A stretch of 37,666 nucleotides of DNA. Source: Candidatus Omnitrophota bacterium. GTDB lineage: Bacteria; Omnitrophota; Gorgyraeia; Gygaellales; Profunditerraquicolaceae. Under the pieces are notes generated by a model. It had not been told where the DNA came from, ran no database searches, and saw only the letters and a list, made by a program, of their open reading frames with translations. Of this stretch, positions 5,085 through 27,430 are shown piece after piece. Positions within the stretch are counted from its first letter, which is position 1. Every line of letters begins with the position of its first letter. The DNA lies in the NCBI GenBank assembly GCA_016214325.1, contig JACROS010000027.1, positions 1,157 to 38,822 on the forward strand, given 5' to 3'. The translations under genes were made by a program, and so were the position numbers.

Positions 5085-5477
5085 ATGGAAAACTTTCAAC
5101 CATTTTTATTAAGTTTTATTCCAATTTTTGTTGCTGTGGATGCAATTGGAAATATCCCTTTGTTTGTGTCACTTGTTCAGGGTACGACAAAGGCGCAAAA
5201 ATTGGGAGTTTTTCCTTTGGGCACTCCACTTATTACAGGGCCTGCTGTATTGACCACTACTTTAATGATGCTGGATAATTATGGCCTTGTTGCTACGTTT
5301 GTTTCTTTACTTTTAAATATGTTTATTGTTTGGGTAACTTTAGTTAAGGCGGATAATATTATGAAAATTCTTGGCGAGGGAGGCACGCGTGCTTTTGCCA
5401 AGATTATGTATATACTTCTTGCAGCTATTAGTATTATGATGATCCGCCGTGGAATTTTAGGAGTGTTGATAAAATGA
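5085..5477 (+). CDS. MarC family membrane protein, internally shortened
   Basis: N-terminal FIPIFVAVDAIGNIPLFVSL and C-terminal FPLGTPLITGPAVLTT...LGEGGTRAFAKIMYILLAAISIMMIRRGI are MarC-like, but the middle transmembrane segments are absent. Confidence 0.75.
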   Translation: MENFQPFLLSFIPIFVAVDAIGNIPLFVSLVQGTTKAQKLGVFPLGTPLITGPAVLTTTLMMLDNYGLVATFVSLLLNMFIVWVTLVKADNIMKILGEGGTRAFAKIMYILLAAISIMMIRRGILGVLIK

Positions 5478-10876: not shown

Positions 10877-13800
10877 ATGTATTTTAAAAGACTGGAATTA
10901 GTTGGATTTAAATCATTTTTCGATAAAACTACACTTCATTTTGAGCCTGGGATCACTGCTGTCGTCGGGCCAAATGGATGTGGAAAGTGTTTGAAGGGTG
11001 ATAGCCAGGTTTGGTTATCAGATGGAAAGAAAATAGAGATAAAGTCGCTGATTGATTTAGCCGTTAAGAATGCTACAAGAATTGATAAAATTGATGACGG
11101 TGAGATTATTTATGCAGATAAATTAAACATTAGCGTGCTTTCTCTTAACCCAGAAAGCATGAAAGTTGAATCAAGGCCAGTCTACGCCTTTGTTAAACGA
11201 ACTGCCCCTGATTATCTGCTGGAGATTAAAACTAAAAGCGGCCGTGAAATAGTTACTACTGGCTACCATCCGTTTTTTACTTTAAAACAAGCAACAATTA
11301 CTGCTTTAAAAGCTGAGCAATTAGAACCTGGAATCAGGATTTCCTTGCCTCGCGCGATAGGAATTAACAAGCCTAATAACACTTTAGATCAATTAGAAAT
11401 TTTAAAAAGATTTTCTCAAAAAGATAATTTGTTTATTCCTTATACTCAGGAATTATCAGAATTCATTTCTTTAGTAGGTGATAAACTGAAGATACAAAAT
11501 AGTAGCTTTCGGGAAATCCAGTCTAAAGAAATTATCGTAAGAAGTGTTATTTCATCTAAGCAGTCAGTAAATGTTTTTAACTTTGTTAATTTATTGAAGG
11601 AAAATAATATTAGTATTTTGCCGGAATTTGTGCAGGAGTTAAAGTCGCGCAGTTCTGGAACTATTAATTTGCCTCTTAGAATGAATAACGGAATAGCGCG
11701 GTTTCTGGGTTATTTAATTTCTGAAGGTAGAACAAATAAAACAAATCAAGTTTGGTTTACTAATGAAGAAGATGCAGTGGTTAAGGACTATCAAGATAAG
11801 GCAAAGGCAAGTTTTGGAGTAGAGGCCAAGGTTTTTAATTATAAAAAGAATGCGAAAGACGTCTTAATATTTTCTAGTGCTTTAGTTAAATATTTGGAAA
11901 AAGCTTTTGATTTTAAGGTTGATGGTATTTCAAAAGATAAAAAAGTTCCTTCGCAATTGTTTTACGCAGAGGAACAGGTAGTAGCTGAATTTTTATCTGG
12001 GCTTTTTGAAGGAGATGGCTATTTGTCCTTGGATAGGCCAGGAAGTGGAGACTATTTTGAATATTCAACTGCTTCAAAAGAATTAGCCCAAGGAATTAGT
12101 AGTTTGCTTTTGCGTTTAGGAGTATTTTCAATCATTAGAGAAAAGAAAAAAGCAGCTACTAACACAGTGGAAAAAAAGAAAAGAACTTATTACTCTGTAT
12201 TTATTTATGGTTTGAGCAATATTAAAAGATTGTGCAAGAATCTTCGTTTTGTAGGCAAGAAAGCGGAGAAATTGAATGGGCTAAAAACACTCAATTATAA
12301 AGAGAACCCAAATCAGGATTTAATTCCAGAAATAAATTCAAACATTAAAGATTTAGTTAAACTCTCTGGAATCAAGGTCAAACGTTTTAAAAAGATTTCT
12401 CCTAAATTAATCAGTTATTATGAAAATAGGTGTTTGCCGAGTCGACAGGGTTTACAGGAAGTTTTAAGCGTTATTTCCGAGCATGGAAACATTACAGGTT
12501 TAGCAAGGTCGATCTATGAGTGCTTAAAAACTATCGCACATTCTGATATTTATTGGGATGAAGTTGTGAGTATAAAAAAGATTTATTCAGAAAAATGGGT
12601 CTACGATTTATCAGTTTTGGGTAATCATAATTTTATTGCACAAGATATGATAGTGCATAATAGTAATATCTTTGATAGCATCCGTTGGGTTTTAGGAGAG
12701 CAGTCGGCAAAATCTCTGCGCGGCTCTGATATGCAGGATGTTATTTTTAACGGCACAGATAATAAAGATGCCTTAGGTATGGCCGAAGTTACCTTAGCTT
12801 TTGATAATAGGAACAGGTTTTTTGCTTTTGATCATGATGAAGTTGCAATCACTCGCCGGCTTTTTCGTTCAGGAGAAAGCGAGTATCTTCTTAATAAAAA
12901 TACTGTTCGCCTAAAAGATATTTCTGATCTTTTGCTTGGCACAGGCGTGGGTGCAGAAAGTTATTCTATTGTTGCCCAGGGAAAAATTGATTTGGTGCTT
13001 AGTTCAAAGCCAGAAGAGCGCCGGATGGTTTTTGATGAGGCAAGCGGAATCACTAAATATAAAGCTCAAAAAAGAGAAACTGCGCGCAAGCTTGAAGAAA
13101 CAGAGCAAAATCTTTTGCGAGTAAATGATATTATTGCCGAAGTTAAGCGTCAAATAGGAAGCCTTGAACGTCAGGCAAATAAGGCGCGAAAGTACAAAGA
13201 GGCTTTTGAAGAATTAAAGATCAAGGAAATAAACTTTGCTATTGTTCAGAAAAAAGAGCTGATTCGGCAAAAAGACGAACTTATAAATAAGCTAAAAGAG
13301 ATGGAGATTAAAGAAACAGAGCTGCTGGATTTGATTCGTAAGCAGGAAGAAACTATTGCCGCGAGCCAATCTGAATTAAGGATTCTTGAAGACAAGATGA
13401 TGGAGGTCAAGAACCAGGTTTTAAATTTAGACAATTCGATTGTTCGTAACAATGAACATATTAGTTTTAATAAAGAAAGAATTATAGAGTTGGATTTAAA
13501 TAGGAGTTTTCTTGAGTCTCAGATTGAAGAAGTGCGCGGTAAAATTATCGCCGACGAGCAAAACCTTAATAATATTCGTCAGGAATATGAAGGCTTGAGA
13601 AAGAATATAGAAGAAAAATCTCAGGTTTTAAGCCAAAGGGAATCAGAAATTAATAACATTGCCTCTGCCATTAAAACTTCCTTAGATAATATTGCCGATA
13701 CTAAGCGCCAGATTATGGAGCTTGCCTCAAAAATTTCCAATACAAAAAATCAGATTGCTGATTTTACCAATAAGCATCATGTTTATGTTGCGCGCAAGAA

Positions 13801-14191
13801 AAGACTTGAAACAGAAAAAGCAAAGGTTTACGAAGAAAAAGTTGTTACAGAGACAAGTTTAACTAATATTACGCAGGAAGTTGAAAATCTTAAGAATGCT
13901 GTAAATGAAGTTAATGAGAAAATAAATTCATTAAAGAACCAATTACAGCAAGAGAATTCGTTTTTATCCAATGTAAATGTTGATATTGACAATTTGGAAA
14001 AACAACGTCTTTCTCTTGAGTCGCATAAAGAGTTTTTGTTGAGGTTAAAAACTAAGTATGAGGATATTAGTGAGTCAATGAATGCTGTAATTTATTTGGA
14101 TAAACCTCCGCAGGAGAACATGAGCGGATTGGTTATAAAAAGATTCGGCGCGTCTTGGGATAAGCGGTTTAAAAATTTCTGGGGAGGCTAA
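10877..14191 (+). CDS. smc: Chromosome segregation SMC ATPase, N-terminal part, interrupted by an intein; frame breaks near 14141
   Basis: [36 protein letters not shown] and (after intein) [32 protein letters not shown]; coiled coil follows; ends prematurely at 14191. Confidence 0.9.
10988..12661 (+). other. Intein (558 aa) with LAGLIDADG homing endonuclease domain, in the SMC P-loop
   Basis: Starts Cys ([13 protein letters not shown]), block B-like [12 protein letters not shown] motifs FLGYLISEG and [13 protein letters not shown], ends [21 protein letters not shown] followed by Ser; removing it restores [21 protein letters not shown]. Confidence 0.95.
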
Positions 14192-19691: not shown

Positions 19692-20127
19692 TATTGAGCA
19701 GGCAAGGAATTACGCTTTCTTACTTTTAAAATTCAGATTGCGTAGTGAGAATGAATTATATCAGCGATTAGTAAAAAAAGGTTTTTCTATTGAGGTTGCT
19801 AAAGAAGTTGTAAATTTCCTTAGAGAAAAACGTTTTATTGATGACAAGCTTTTTGCCAAAGCGTGGGTTGATTCACGTATAAAAAAGCCGTTTGGTGTAA
19901 GAAGGATTAAGCAGGAGCTTCTAAGAAAAGGTATGGCTCAGGAAGTTATAGATAAACAGTTAGCGCAAATAAAGGAAAATTATTCTGAAATAGATGTGGT
20001 CAGGCAGATTTCAGAAGAAAGATTTAAAAAATTGAGCGGGGTTACGCCTGAAGCAGCAAAAAGGCGCGTTTATGGTTATTTGCTGAGGCGGGGTTTTTCT
20101 CCCGAGGTTATTCTAGAGGTATTATGA
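19672..20127 (+). CDS. recX: Regulatory protein RecX (GTG start)
   Basis: ARNYAFLLLKFRLRSENELYQRLVKKGFS, FAKAWVDSRIKKPFGVRRIKQEL; recA/alaS neighbourhood. Confidence 0.9.
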   Translation: MKKKSNSIEQARNYAFLLLKFRLRSENELYQRLVKKGFSIEVAKEVVNFLREKRFIDDKLFAKAWVDSRIKKPFGVRRIKQELLRKGMAQEVIDKQLAQIKENYSEIDVVRQISEERFKKLSGVTPEAAKRRVYGYLLRRGFSPEVILEVL

Positions 20128-22568
20128 AAGCTGATATTTTAAGAAAGAAATTCTTAGATTTTTTTAAGAGTAAAAAACATCGTATTGTTGAAAGCGATTC
20201 TTTGGTGCCCAAAGATGACCCTACGGTTTTATTTACACCCGCCGGTATGAATCAGTTTAAGAAAGAGTTTCTAGGTTTTGATTCTGGTTTTAAACGTGCG
20301 GTGACATCTCAGCGTTGTTTGCGCACTGATGATTTGGACAAAGTTGGTAAAACTACCGGGCATCATACTTTCTTTGAAATGCTTGGGAACTTTTCTTTTG
20401 GCGATTATTTTAAGCGCGATGCTATTTTATGGGCCTGGGAGTTTTTAACAGAAGAGTTAAAAATTAGCTCTAATAAGCTCCGGGTTACAGTTTACAAGGA
20501 TGATGATGAGGCTTATGGTATTTGGCTTAACGATGTAAAAGTCCCTAAAGAAAAGATTATTAAGTTAGGTGATAAAGATAATTTTTGGCCATCTGAGGCA
20601 AAAGAAAAAGGGCCAAATGGCCCTTGCGGCCCTTGTTCAGAAATCTTTTATGATTTTGGCAAAGAAACAGGTTGTGGCGAATCGGTGTGTGACCCGTCGT
20701 GTAGTTGCGGCAGATTTGTAGAAATCTGGAATTTGGTTTTTACGCAATTTAACCGAAAAGAAGGCGGAAAACTCGAAGCTCTGCCAAATAAAAATATTGA
20801 CACTGGCATGGGCCTTGAACGTTTGGCTGCTGTGATGCAGGGAGCAGTAAATAATTTTGAAACGGACTTGTTTAAGCCTTTAGTAGATGAGGTAATTTCT
20901 AATGCTAAAGATTTCCTTCCAGAGAATAAAAAGATTGCTTATGCAATTGCTGATCATTTAAGAGCCATTGTTTTTTCTATTTTTGACGGAGTGCTTGCTT
21001 CTAACGAAGGAAGAGGTTATGTGGTTAGAAAACTGATTCGTAAAAGCGCATTGCATCTAAGAAATCTTGGGATTAAACAACCTTTTTTATATAAGCTCGT
21101 TCCTGTTTTGTCTGGGATAATGCAAGATCCTTATCCTGAGCTTATCGAGCGCAAAGAAGATATTTCTGAAGTGATTCTCTCAGAAGAAAAAAGCTTTATT
21201 GCTACGCTTAATTCAAGTGAAAGCTTGTTAAAGGAAAAATTTTCAGCACTTATCAAGAATCAAAATCCAGAGAAGGCTGGTAAACTGGCTTTTCAGTTGT
21301 ATGACACTTATGGTATGCCCTTGGAATTAACTGTTGATTGGATGGAGAAAAACGGAGTTAAATTTTCGCAGCAGGCATTTGATCAGGAGCTTGAAACTCA
21401 AAAAAACCGCTCAAAAACCAAGAGCGCAATGAAAGGCGATGTTTTTGCGGTTAAAGACTTGGATTATGGAGTAAAAGAAACCAAATTTTCAGGATATAAA
21501 AAGTTTTCTCTTGAGTCTCAAATTTTAAAAGTTTACAAAGGAAATAGTGAATTAAAGAAGCTGTCTTGTGGGGATGAGGGCATAATTATATTAAATGAAA
21601 CTCCATTTTATGCTGAATCAGGTGGTCAGGCAGCTGATACAGGAGTCATTAAAAAAGGGAAAAACGTTTTTGAAGTTCTGGATACAAGGAAATCTGGAAA
21701 TGTAATTTTGCATATCGGTAGAGTGAAATCTGGAAGTTTTAAAAAGAAAGATTCAGTGCAGGCTGAAATTAATACTGAACGCAGGCTTTCAATTGCCAGA
21801 AATCATACAGCTACACATTTATTGCAGGCGGCTTTAAGAAAAGTTTTGGGCCAACATGTTCAACAGCAGGGTTCTTTGGTTTCAGAAGAAAGGCTGCGTT
21901 TTGATTTTACCGTAGTTTCAGTCGGAGATCTTTCAAGAGAACTTTGCGGTGGCACTCATTTGGGCCAAACTGGCCAGATTGGGCTTTTTAAAATATTACA
22001 AGAAACTTCAGTTGCCAGTAATGTGCGCCGCATTGAAGCAGTAACCGGGATTTTTGCATATAAGAAAGTTAAGGAAGATGAAGAGATTATTTCTGATGTT
22101 GCAAAATTATTTAATGTCGGACGCGGAAGTATTCTTCAGGAGGCCCAGAAGCGTGCTGTGCGTTTAAAAGAGTTAGAAAAACAATTAAGCGCCCAGAAAT
22201 TAAGTTCGGTGAAGAATTCTCTGGATGATTTAATTAAAGATGCCCAGAATGTAAATGGAAAATCTTTGATAATAAAAGTTTTTGAAGATGTCCATATGGA
22301 ATTATTGCGTAAAAACATAGATTTGTTAAAGGAAAAAACCCAAAATGCAATTATTGCGCTTGCGTCAGTAAATCAGGGGAAAGTGTTGTTGGTTATGGGC
22401 ATAACTACGGATCTTTGTGAAAAAGGGCTTGACGCTGGCAAACTTGTCCGCGATGTTTCTGGTTTAATTGGAGGAAGCGGCGGAGGAAGAAGAGATTTTG
22501 CTCAAGCAGGGGGGACTAAGCCAGAGAATCTAGATCAGGCTTTCCAAAAATTAAGAGAAATACTATGA
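20124..22568 (+). CDS. alaS: Alanyl-tRNA synthetase with an apparent internal deletion in the editing/SAD region
   Basis: FTPAGMNQFKKEFLG, TGHHTFFEMLGNFSFGDYFK, GNPGPCGPCSEIF-like, RNHTATHLLQAALRKVLG, ELCGGTH, C-terminal GGSGGGRRDFAQAGG. Confidence 0.96.
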   Translation: MKADILRKKFLDFFKSKKHRIVESDSLVPKDDPTVLFTPAGMNQFKKEFLGFDSGFKRAVTSQRCLRTDDLDKVGKTTGHHTFFEMLGNFSFGDYFKRDAILWAWEFLTEELKISSNKLRVTVYKDDDEAYGIWLNDVKVPKEKIIKLGDKDNFWPSEAKEKGPNGPCGPCSEIFYDFGKETGCGESVCDPSCSCGRFVEIWNLVFTQFNRKEGGKLEALPNKNIDTGMGLERLAAVMQGAVNNFETDLFKPLVDEVISNAKDFLPENKKIAYAIADHLRAIVFSIFDGVLASNEGRGYVVRKLIRKSALHLRNLGIKQPFLYKLVPVLSGIMQDPYPELIERKEDISEVILSEEKSFIATLNSSESLLKEKFSALIKNQNPEKAGKLAFQLYDTYGMPLELTVDWMEKNGVKFSQQAFDQELETQKNRSKTKSAMKGDVFAVKDLDYGVKETKFSGYKKFSLESQILKVYKGNSELKKLSCGDEGIIILNETPFYAESGGQAADTGVIKKGKNVFEVLDTRKSGNVILHIGRVKSGSFKKKDSVQAEINTERRLSIARNHTATHLLQAALRKVLGQHVQQQGSLVSEERLRFDFTVVSVGDLSRELCGGTHLGQTGQIGLFKILQETSVASNVRRIEAVTGIFAYKKVKEDEEIISDVAKLFNVGRGSILQEAQKRAVRLKELEKQLSAQKLSSVKNSLDDLIKDAQNVNGKSLIIKVFEDVHMELLRKNIDLLKEKTQNAIIALASVNQGKVLLVMGITTDLCEKGLDAGKLVRDVSGLIGGSGGGRRDFAQAGGTKPENLDQAFQKLREIL

Positions 22569-23791
22569 AAATAATCCGTTTTACGAGTAAAAAGCTGGAC
22601 AAAATTTATAACCGCGGCCAAGCAAAAAATAAACGTGTAGAAGAAAAAGTTGCGAAAATTATTGAGGACGTTAGGCTTTTTGGCGACGAGGCTGTTTTGA
22701 AATATACTCGAAAGTTTGATAAAGTAAAAATGACCCAAAGGCAGTTAAAGGTTTCTCAAATAGAAATTAGCGGAGCCTATCAGAATATTAGCCCGAATTT
22801 TGTTTCGACTCTTAAGGTTGTAATTGATAATGTGAATCGTTTTTATCGCAAGACCCTTAAGAAATCTTGGCGGATAAAAGACGCAGATGGGGTTATTTTA
22901 GGAGAAAATTATACCGCACTTGAAAAAGTGGGAGTTTATATTCCTGCAGGAACTGCTCCTTTGGTTTCTACTGTTTATATGACCGTGCTTCCGGCAAAGA
23001 TTGCTGGTGTGAAAAAAATTGTTTTAATCAGCCCGCCGGATAAAAATGGATTTATTAACCCGCATATTTTGGTTGTGGCTGACCTTTTAAAGGTAGATGA
23101 AATTTATCGCGTAGGTGGAGCACAAGGGATAGCTGCTCTTAGCTATGGCACAAAGACAATTCCCAGGGTAGATAAAATAGTCGGCCCGGGCAATGTCTAT
23201 GTTAGTGAAGCTAAGCGGCAAGTTTTCGGGATAGTTGATATTGATATGATTGCCGGGCCCACAGAGCTTGTGATAATTGCAAACAGAAGCGCAGAAGCAA
23301 AATTTATTGTTGCAGATTTACAGGCGCAGGCAGAACATGCAAAAGGTTTGGCTATTCTTGTAACTAATTCAAAGAGCCTGGCAAAGGAAGTAAAATCACG
23401 GCTTGATGGAGCCAATGGTTTTATTGTTTTGACCAAGAATTTAGAGCAGGCAGCAGAAATTGTTAATAAAATTGCGCCTGAACACCTGGAGGTTTTTGTA
23501 AATAACCCGCAGCGTTTGTTAAAGCAAATTAAAAATGCCGGAGCAATATTTTTGGGCCCATACAGCCCTGCGGCAGTGGGTGATTATGTTGCTGGACCCA
23601 GCCATGTGCTTCCAACTGCAGGAACAGCGCGGTTTTTTTCCGGTTTGTCCGTTTATGATTTTCAGAAAAGCAGCCACGTGATTAGCTATTCTAAAAAGGC
23701 GCTTGAGAAAATAAAAGAACCACTTGAGAAAGTTGCTGGAATAGAGGGGTTAAGTAAGCATTTGGAGTCAGTAAAAGCAAGGTTTATCTAG
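22565..23791 (+). CDS. hisD: Histidinol dehydrogenase
   Basis: VGVYIPAGTAPLVSTVYMTVLPAKIAGV, VGGAQGIAALSYGT, KIVGPGNVYV, DLQAQAEH, GDYVAGPSHVLPT. Confidence 0.96.
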   Translation: MKIIRFTSKKLDKIYNRGQAKNKRVEEKVAKIIEDVRLFGDEAVLKYTRKFDKVKMTQRQLKVSQIEISGAYQNISPNFVSTLKVVIDNVNRFYRKTLKKSWRIKDADGVILGENYTALEKVGVYIPAGTAPLVSTVYMTVLPAKIAGVKKIVLISPPDKNGFINPHILVVADLLKVDEIYRVGGAQGIAALSYGTKTIPRVDKIVGPGNVYVSEAKRQVFGIVDIDMIAGPTELVIIANRSAEAKFIVADLQAQAEHAKGLAILVTNSKSLAKEVKSRLDGANGFIVLTKNLEQAAEIVNKIAPEHLEVFVNNPQRLLKQIKNAGAIFLGPYSPAAVGDYVAGPSHVLPTAGTARFFSGLSVYDFQKSSHVISYSKKALEKIKEPLEKVAGIEGLSKHLESVKARFI

Positions 23792-23818: not shown

Positions 23819-24373
23819 ATGAAAAAAAGATCTGCAGTAATTAAAAGAAATACTAAGGAAACAGAGATTACTGTTAAACTAAATATTGACGGAGCAGGAA
23901 AAACCAAAATCAATACAGGGATTGGAATTGAGATTGCCGCAAAAGGCGATTTAAATATCGATAAACATCATACTAATGAGGATATTGGAATTACGCTGGG
24001 CCAGGCTTTTAAAGAAGCATTAGGGGTCAAGAAAGGCATTAACAGGAATGGAACTGCTTGTTGGCCGATGGAAAAAGTGCTTTCTTGCGTGTCGCTTGAT
24101 ATTTGTGGAAGGCCATTTTATAAGTTTTCTGCAAATGTCGGCGAAGGGACAAAAGATGAAAGCGGTTATTCTTTAAAAGAAGCAGAGCATTTCTTTGAGG
24201 CATTTGCAAATCATTTGGGGATGAACTTGCATATTAAGGTTGAGCCAACGGTTTATGATTTGCACACGACGCTTGAGCCTGTTTTTAAGGCGCTTGGAAA
24301 ATCTTTATCAGAAGCTTGTCAGATTAATCCTCGCAGGAAAGATGTTCCTTCCACAAAGGGCGTGATTGATTAA
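23819..24373 (+). CDS. hisB: Imidazoleglycerol-phosphate dehydratase-like protein, divergent/shortened
   Basis: RNTKETEITVKLNIDGAGKTKINTGIG, KHHTNEDIGITLGQAFKEALG, EHFFEAFANHLGMNLHI, DVPSTKG; lacks the F(L/F)DHML segment. Confidence 0.85.
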   Translation: MKKRSAVIKRNTKETEITVKLNIDGAGKTKINTGIGIEIAAKGDLNIDKHHTNEDIGITLGQAFKEALGVKKGINRNGTACWPMEKVLSCVSLDICGRPFYKFSANVGEGTKDESGYSLKEAEHFFEAFANHLGMNLHIKVEPTVYDLHTTLEPVFKALGKSLSEACQINPRRKDVPSTKGVID

Positions 24374-24374
24374 A

Positions 24375-24983
24375 ATGATTGCAATTATTGACTACGGCAT
24401 GGGTAATATTCATAGTGTGAATAAGGCCCTGCAGGTAAGTGGCGCAAAAACATTAATTACCAATAAAGCTGAGGATATCAAATCTTGCGATAAGGCAGTG
24501 CTTCCGGGCGTAGGGGCTTTTGATGATGCTGTTTTAGAATTAAAGAAGCAGAATTTAATTGAACCGATTCTTGAACATGTAAGAAACGGAAAGCCTTTTT
24601 TAGGTATTTGTTTGGGTATGCAGCTTTTGTTTGATGAAAGCGCTGAGGCCAAAAAAGAAAAAGGCCTAGGTATTTTAAAAGGGAAGGTTAAAAAATTTAA
24701 ACACAGCCACGATTTAAAGGTTCCTCATATGGGATGGAACCAGCTAAAAATTATTGGCGCATGTCCTTTGTTAAGGGATGTTCCTGAGAATTCTTTTGTT
24801 TATTTTTGTCATTCGTATTATCCAGATCCCCTCGATAAAGGAGTTATTGCCGCCTTAACAAACTACGGGCAAGATTTTGCTGCAATAGTCTGGAAAGAAA
24901 AGATTTTTGGAATGCAGTTTCATCCGGAGAAGAGCCAAAGTATCGGTTTAAAAATGATGGAAAACTTTGTTAATCTATGTTGA
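24375..24983 (+). CDS. hisH: Imidazole glycerol phosphate synthase subunit HisH
   Basis: IIDYGMGNIHSV, LPGVGAFDDA, FLGICLGMQLLF, KVPHMGWNQL, FGMQFHPEKSQ. Confidence 0.96.
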   Translation: MIAIIDYGMGNIHSVNKALQVSGAKTLITNKAEDIKSCDKAVLPGVGAFDDAVLELKKQNLIEPILEHVRNGKPFLGICLGMQLLFDESAEAKKEKGLGILKGKVKKFKHSHDLKVPHMGWNQLKIIGACPLLRDVPENSFVYFCHSYYPDPLDKGVIAALTNYGQDFAAIVWKEKIFGMQFHPEKSQSIGLKMMENFVNLC

Positions 24984-25696
24984 TTATTCCTGCAATTGAT
25001 TTAAAAGATGGTTGTGTAGTCCGTTATGTCCAAGGAAGGACGGATAAGAAGGTTTATTCAAAAGATCCTCTAAAGACTGCCAAGCATTGGGCCAGGCAAG
25101 GCGCAGAATTTCTGCATATAGTAGATTTAGACGGCGCGTTTTCTGGAGTACCAAAGAATATTCATTTAGTAAAAGAAATTGCCAAGAGTATTAATATTCC
25201 TGTTGAATTTGGTGGCGGAGTTAGGGATATGGAAACAATTACTTCTTTATTGGATGCTGATGTAAAGAGAGTGATTTTAGGGACTAAGGTAGTTGAAGAT
25301 AAAATATTTCTTGAAAATGTTTTGAAGAAATTTAAAGACAGGATTATTATAGGTGTTGATGCAAAAGAAAACAAAGTAATGATTAAGGGTTGGAAAGATG
25401 CTTCAAACGCAGAAGATCTTACAGCTTTTGCAAATTTATTAAAAGAAAAAGGGTGCAATGAAATTATTTATACGGATACTTTAAAAGACGGCACCTTGAC
25501 TGGGCCAAATATAAAAGGGATCAAGTCGCTTTTAAAAGAAACAGGAATAAAGATAATTGCATCAGGCGGAATTTCTTGCCTTGAGGATTTACGTAAGCTA
25601 AAATTGCTTGAAAAGCAAGGGGTGACCGGGGTAATTGTAGGCAAGGCACTGTATGAAGGAAAATTTACTTTAGCCGAAGCGCTTAAGTTTTCTTAG
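24977..25696 (+). CDS. hisA: Phosphoribosylformimino-5-aminoimidazole carboxamide ribotide isomerase
   Basis: IIPAIDLKDGCVVRYVQG, FLHIVDLDGAFSG, EFGGGVRD, IASGGIS. Confidence 0.95.
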   Translation: MLIIPAIDLKDGCVVRYVQGRTDKKVYSKDPLKTAKHWARQGAEFLHIVDLDGAFSGVPKNIHLVKEIAKSINIPVEFGGGVRDMETITSLLDADVKRVILGTKVVEDKIFLENVLKKFKDRIIIGVDAKENKVMIKGWKDASNAEDLTAFANLLKEKGCNEIIYTDTLKDGTLTGPNIKGIKSLLKETGIKIIASGGISCLEDLRKLKLLEKQGVTGVIVGKALYEGKFTLAEALKFS

Positions 25697-26198: not shown

Positions 26199-27062
26199 AT
26201 GTTAACAAAGCGAATTATTCCATGCCTTGATATTAAAGACGGCAGGGTGGTTAAGGGTGTTAAGTTTCTTGGCTTAAAAGATGCAGGGGATCCTGTTGAG
26301 GTAGCCAAGATTTATGATAAAGAAGAAGCTGATGAGCTAGTATTTTTGGATATTACTGCAAGTTTTGAAAAGCGTAAAACCTTAATTGAGCTTGTAGAAC
26401 AGATTGCTAAGAATATCTTTATGCCTTTTACCGTCGGTGGTGGGGTTGGGGATATTGCTGATATTAGAAATATTCTTAATGCTGGGGCTGAGAAGGTTTC
26501 TGTTAATACTCAGGCAGTAAAATTTCCACAGTTAATATCAGAGTCAGCAAGGCGTTTCGGCAGTCAGAGTATTGTAGTAGCAATAGATGCGAAGTTGGTC
26601 ACCAGTCACCAGTCACCGGTCACCGGTAATGGACAAGAGACAGGAGACCCCTCGACTCGGCTCGGGGTAAACAGGAGACCCCTCGACTCGGCTCGGGGTA
26701 AACAGGAGACAGACAAGTGGGAAGTTTATATTAATGGAGGCAGGACTCCCACTGGCCTTGATGCTGTTGACTGGGCAAGAAAAGTAGCAAAGCTAGGTGC
26801 AGGCGAGATACTATTAACTAGCATGGATTACGATGGGACAAAAGACGGTTTTGATATTAAATTAACTAAGGCGATTACTGAGGCAGTGAGTATTCCTGTT
26901 ATTGCTTCAGGCGGAGCAGGAAAACCAGAACATTTTTCTGAGGTTTTTTCCAAAACTTCTGCTGATGCAGGGTTGGCTGCTTCAATTTTTCATTATCAGG
27001 AATATTCGGTAAGACAGGTTAAAGAGTATTTAAGGAGCAAAGAAATCCCAGTGCGTTTATAA
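26199..27062 (+). CDS. hisF: Imidazole glycerol phosphate synthase subunit HisF with repeat-derived loop insertion
   Basis: [76 protein letters not shown]. Confidence 0.95.
26597..26710. repeat. Repeat cluster inside hisF: four RGTCACC heptamers plus two tandem copies of a 31-bp unit
   Basis: ggtcacc-agtcacc-agtcacc-ggtcacc (26597-26624); caggagacccctcgactcggctcggggtaaa at 26641-26671 and 26672-26702, then partial caggagac. Confidence 0.93.
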
Positions 27063-27082: not shown

Positions 27083-27430
27083 TTGATGAAAAAACAGAAT
27101 GAAAAACAAAAATTAAGCATTAGATCGTTAAAGTTTGATGACAAAGGATTGATCCCTGCAATTATACAGGATTATAAGAACGACGAGGTTTTGATGCTGG
27201 CTTATATGAATAGAGAATCAGTGCGCAGAACTATGAAATTAAAGAAGACGTGTTTCTGGTCTCGTTCACGCAAGGTTTATTGGGTAAAAGGTGAAACTTC
27301 AGGGCATTTTCAGTTTGTAAAATCAATTGCATACGACTGTGATATGGATGCTTTGTTAATTAAGGTTCGTCAGATTGGCGTAGCTTGCCATACTGGAAAT
27401 AGGAGTTGTTTCTACAGGAAATTAAAATAA
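27083..27430 (+). CDS. hisI: Phosphoribosyl-AMP cyclohydrolase
   Basis: [60 protein letters not shown]. Confidence 0.95.

Follow-up and report, generated by a model that had tools for sequence, protein, structure and literature searches.

Does a histidine biosynthesis gene that has lost part of its core and one histidine of its metal-binding motif encode a broken, a repurposed or a differently metallated enzyme? This question is raised by hisB of a draft Candidatus Omnitrophota genome (GCA_016214325.1), within a stretch of 37,666 nucleotides of contig JACROS010000027.1 that was analyzed as a whole and is referred to here as the window. An initial annotation had read a missing segment and an altered C-terminal motif as one event affecting the encoded imidazoleglycerol-phosphate dehydratase (IGPD). 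The enzyme is a herbicide and antimicrobial target, and its mechanism is attributed to a switch of coordination at the second manganese ion (Mn2). The gap and the change of the motif from HH to HT are two unrelated things, and we treat them separately below.

The hisB Gene and Its Genomic Context

Gene order in the window is alaS-hisD-hisB-hisH-hisA-orf-hisF-hisI, which places hisB among other his genes:

22565..23791, + strand: hisD, upstream of hisB (PF00815 / TIGR00069)
23819..24373, + strand: hisB, IGPD, 184 aa as assembled (PF00475 and PDB matches)
24366..24983, + strand: hisH, downstream of hisB (TIGR01855)
24977..25696, + strand: hisA (TIGR00007)
26199..27062, + strand: hisF, with a 69-bp in-frame repeat insertion (TIGR00735)
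27083..27430, + strand: hisI (PF01502 / PRK00051)

By profile, fold and context, the window HisB is a member of the IGPD family, although it lacks the complete Mn2 ligand set and falls short of the NCBIfam HisB equivalog cut-offs (all at least 189 bits; best score 170 bits). It matches PF00475 with E=4.4e-37 and 127.8 bits, against a curated cut-off of 27, and IGPD entries of the PDB with values down to 3.4e-35. A second hisB, which the initial annotation had proposed to look for, was not found in this MAG (84% complete, 106 contigs), where the window gene is the sole HisB match; nearly all Omnitrophota genomes searched likewise yielded a single match each.

Canonical hisE (PF01503) was not found in this genome, which does hold hisG (contig C27) besides the his genes of the window. 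Relatives gave weak hisE matches only, in 6 of 30, and a HisE replacement may be in use. The in-frame insertion of hisF (in the region 26600-26725) consists of short tandem, partly palindromic repeats (ACAGGAGACCCCTCGACTCGGCTCGGGGTAA), and similar copies occur elsewhere in the sampled genome.

A 48-bp Gap Private to One Genome

Across positions 23915-23945 the hisB frame reads KINTGIG-IEIAAKGDLNIDKHHTNED. As reference for the gap we used a MAG of the same genus (contig JACQXK010000106, loci L032/L014), hereafter the sibling, whose hisB is 96% identical outside the gap and keeps the missing segment intact. DNA and protein alignment with this gene located the junction:

23915..23945, + strand: TGIG|IEIAAK junction, with a 48-bp in-frame gap (16 codons) at 23927/23928

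This is the only large difference between the two genes. It removes the sibling's 16-residue segment, or the equivalent 16 residues after TGIGI, and alignment to Arabidopsis thaliana IGPD2, whose numbering is used for active-site residues throughout, showed that H47, a ligand of the first manganese (Mn1), and H55 of the phosphate site go with it. The initial annotation was therefore right that 16 residues, one histidine ligand among them, are missing from the assembled gene. No other Omnitrophota HisB sequence aligned has the gap; L085 is also without this region, but only because its gene begins at the contig end.

Structure prediction (AlphaFold with clade alignments; the models are monomers, while IGPD metal sites span subunits) gave a mean pLDDT of 90.8 for the sibling HisB, with a confident helix at 36-49 and TM scores of 0.85-0.90 to the best IGPD crystal structures. 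The window HisB reached a mean of 79.7, falling to about 66-71 for residues 21-50 around the junction. The whole first core helix is absent from this model, and its TM scores to IGPD structures were 0.70-0.86.

We then compared about 75 kb of this MAG, comprising the window and contigs C1 and C17, with the sibling, and counted seven internal coding deletions of 29-204 bp. Besides the hisB gap, the window holds three comparison cases:

5085..5477, + strand: marC-family gene, 204-bp in-frame deletion after 5196
10877..14191, + strand: smc, 29-bp frame-breaking deletion after 14136
20124..22568, + strand: alaS, 165-bp in-frame deletion after 21910

Within the window alone, three of four deletions are in frame, a point against assembly error. 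Those on contigs C1 and C17 all break the frame, in genes (named from sequence only) for a CsgG-like lipoprotein (149 bp), a radical-SAM protein (85 bp) and a lysophospholipid-acyltransferase-like protein (140 bp). Overall the frame is kept in 3 of 7, which is the chance rate. A view in which every deletion keeps the frame, and would therefore have been under selection, was ruled out by the smc deletion and the three frame-breaking ones on C1 and C17. No comparable frame-breaking deletion was found in the sibling over the same stretches, and no convincing direct repeats or shared microhomology were seen at the deletion junctions. Compared with its sibling counterpart, the single alaS of this genome is missing 55 aa in the region of the editing domain, probably through the same kind of assembly error as hisB.

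An apparent 1.67-kb deletion in the sibling smc turned out to be an intein present in the window, and was left out of the count. This intein of about 558 aa (10988-12661) follows GPNGCGK in the P-loop, carries splicing and LAGLIDADG domains and ends ...MIVHN|SN; the sibling smc has none there. The sibling gene (L105/L106) itself appears to be interrupted by an in-frame stop at a point where the frame of the window stays open.

Deletions in this MAG appear to ignore the reading frame, which makes the hisB gap probably an assembly error of the draft genome. Misassembly had been named beforehand in the initial annotation as the explanation that would undo its reading, and it gains probability here from a gap that is unique to the MAG and stands among other frame-blind deletions. 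At most, the gap would be a private, recent deletion, and HisB of this lineage keeps the FxDHML helix with its Mn1 ligand. If the gap is an error, the locus illustrates how a misassembled draft genome can make an enzyme look broken.

Two readings would instead take the deletion as real. It could have inactivated the organism's only hisB, with histidine synthesis and other functions decaying, and the single HisB match, the removal of a core helix and an Mn1 ligand, the damage to other nearby genes and the missing canonical hisE all fit such decay. We nevertheless consider it quite unlikely: the rest of hisB is under strong purifying selection (Ka/Ks against the sibling 0.028 outside the gap), as are the other his genes (0.02-0.09); frame-blind deletions in smc and in the sole alaS are hard to reconcile with a living lineage; and relatives with an intact HisB likewise yield a weak hisE match or none. 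Alternatively, the shortened HisB could still work, or serve another role, with its metals arranged in a new way, as the exactly in-frame gap and intact remaining motifs would permit. This is highly improbable, as the gap is unique to one MAG, frame preservation among the seven deletions is at the chance rate, and the window model is unsure around the junction and has no first helix, where the sibling model is confident.

Active-Site Residues of the Window HisB

In A. thaliana IGPD2, Mn1 is bound by H47, H74, H169 and E173 and Mn2 by H73, E77, H145 and H170; E21 is the acid-base catalyst, and E77 and D108 hydrogen-bond the Mn2-bound water HOH1 and form a proton relay (PMC4509728). Alignment assigned the following equivalents in the window:

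23858..23860, + strand: E14, equivalent to E21 (acid-base catalyst), kept
23966..23971, + strand: H50-H51, equivalent to H73 (Mn2 ligand) and H74 (Mn1 ligand), kept
23978..23980, + strand: E54, equivalent to E77 (Mn2 ligand), kept
24071..24073, + strand: E85, equivalent to D108, changed to Glu clade-wide
24230..24232, + strand: H138, equivalent to H145 (Mn2 ligand), kept in the window's genus
24263..24268, + strand: H149, equivalent to H169 (Mn1 ligand), kept, and T150, equivalent to H170 (Mn2 ligand), lost
24266-24268, + strand: codon of T150 (H170 position)
24275..24277, + strand: E153, equivalent to E173 (Mn1 ligand), kept

Also kept are R99, K177 and K201 of the phosphate site. From the Mn1 set only H47 is missing, through the gap and thus probably as an artefact. 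The Mn2 set is incomplete, with H73, E77 and H145 present and threonine at 170. The C-terminal motif reads LHTTLEP in window and sibling alike (HTTLE for HHxxE; canonical xHHxxEA), which bears out the replaced histidine of the initial annotation. Two things went beyond that annotation, namely the change of D108 to E and the finding that an entire clade shares HT for HH, whereas the gap occurs in this genome only.

A Clade-Wide Variant in Omnitrophota

To place the motif, 116 Omnitrophota HisB sequences were aligned, in a non-random sample made up of close relatives, high scorers and, by design, low scorers of the class. H170 is lost in 52 of them, replaced by T in 41, A in 8, S in 2 and K in 1. 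These variants carry E at 108 in 51 cases and lack H145 in 50, mostly with N or S there, and all 52 keep E21, H47, H73, H74, E77, H169 and E173. In the complete variant members tabulated, R99, K177 and K201 are kept together with E21 and the full Mn1 set. H170-bearing Omnitrophota sequences have D108 in 57/64 and H145 in 42/64. Two sequences, L084 (D108, S170) and L214 (E108, H170), break the pairing of positions 108 and 170. Outside the phylum, all ten residues are kept in 93/93 HisB sequences from three other phyla, 90 of which were drawn from samples of those phyla as the top hits of the variant profile.

On the tree, H170 loss has one origin (SH-aLRT 95-96, quick method), with about three changes at position 108 and about twelve at 145. 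The variant clade includes members from several families within the window's order and from other families of the same class. D108E and the loss of H170 fall together in one event, and with this one origin a statistical test of compensation between them has no power. Every one of the 34 variant loci checked has hisB adjoining hisD in the same orientation, and hisH, usually with hisA, comes next wherever the stretch reaches them.

A few genomes gave HisB-like matches of unusual form. In one Omnitrophota genome, the only match, L235 (G163, contig C4, 71999-72226), amounts to a C-terminal half and lies within an open frame with a reported length of 24,097 aa. G685, G689, G717, G721 and G745, of the phylum of L037, each have only a weak match, which covers profile positions 66-195 and lies within an open frame 657-979 aa in length.

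These comparisons show that the HH-to-HT change is old, real and clade-wide, but that the gap is private to one genome. Both features that the initial annotation joined are present in the assembly, but their distribution separates them. Its proposals of an inactive or a repurposed HisB find no support: the complete variants tabulated retain the catalytic residue E21, the full Mn1 set and R99, K177 and K201 of the phosphate site, and hisB of the window has a Ka/Ks of 0.03 against the sibling. A differently metallated enzyme is plausible for the clade-wide HT motif, with its one origin and his operons; the gap, however, is not biological evidence for it.

Possible Remodeling of the Mn2 Site

Taken jointly, we think it likely that the gap is an assembly error and that HTxxE reflects an ancient remodeling of the Mn2 site in a working IGPD. 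The analysis shows the sequence states, the one origin, the operon context and the fold of the sibling model, and from these we infer activity, metal occupancy and what Glu108 may do. The order of events on the tree suggests that H145 became dispensable in the phylum first, and that H170 was then lost once, in an ancestor shared by a large Omnitrophota clade, at the same time as the change of D108 to E. H145 would have drifted away in most clade members and been kept or regained in the window's genus. The intact Mn1 site (H47, H74, H169, E173) would do most of the holding and activation of substrate. Mn2, if bound, would be held by H73, E77 and a directly coordinating Glu108, replacing either the water HOH1 or a lost histidine as ligand; one carbon longer than Asp, Glu108 could reach the metal or the imidazole N3 directly. 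E77 and Glu108 would still pass the N3 proton to solvent, and E21 would stay the acid-base catalyst. Either a rebuilt Mn2 site, or an Mn2-free site with E77/E108 as base, could support the reaction.

The second of these options amounts to a single-metal enzyme in which Mn2 would be gone and E77/E108 would act as direct base on N3. In nearly all members two of the four protein ligands of Mn2 are missing while every Mn1 ligand is kept, and E77 and D108 already form a proton relay in the canonical enzyme. It is doubtful nonetheless, since H73 and E77, both Mn2 ligands, are invariant in 52/52 variants, a carboxylate persists at 108 through the change from D to E, a sign that this position may still hold something, and the window's genus keeps H145. 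The substitutions might also be neutral drift in a normal two-Mn site for which two protein ligands and waters suffice. H145 does appear dispensable in Omnitrophota because it was lost repeatedly with H170 intact (about 12 tree changes). Drift alone is unlikely, however, to explain an H170 loss that happened once, shows no reversal among 53 rows and goes together with E108, and 93/93 outside sequences keep both residues.

Returning to the remodeled IGPD, we put at about even the chance that the HisB enzymes of a large natural clade function although their second manganese site is rebuilt or missing, with H170 and usually H145 lost and Glu in place of Asp108 as direct ligand or base. If true, the two-Mn mechanism described for IGPD would not be obligatory. 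A clade that lacks two of four Mn2 protein ligands, and has hisB in the his operon as its only detected copy, is a natural test of the need for Mn2, and also of metal-site rebuilding by ligand swap.

Comparison With Known IGPDs

Within the literature searched, the HTxxE HisB is a previously undescribed variant of a known enzyme; our search, with partial coverage, found no paper on IGPD with substituted Mn ligands or on Omnitrophota histidine synthesis. The variant clade shares with A. thaliana IGPD2 (PDB 4MU0/4MU3/4QNK; PMC4509728) the fold and profile family, E21, H73, E77, R99, K177, K201 and the Mn1 ligands H47/H74/H169/E173. It differs in having T/A/S/K for H170, E for D108, mostly N/S/I/V and others for H145, and, in most members, at least one residue inserted ahead of the HxxxE motif; in the window copy, the 48-bp gap takes away H47 and H55 as well. 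Canonical Omnitrophota HisB sequences (e.g., L002-L008, L041-L062) come from the same phylum and are full-length IGPDs with the same Mn1 set, but they keep HH at 169/170, and H145 is nevertheless lost in 22/64. Medicago truncatula HISN5 has the same eight metal-ligand positions, described as among the most conserved across kingdoms, and sites shared between subunits; unlike in the variant clade, all eight ligands are present (PMC10978614).
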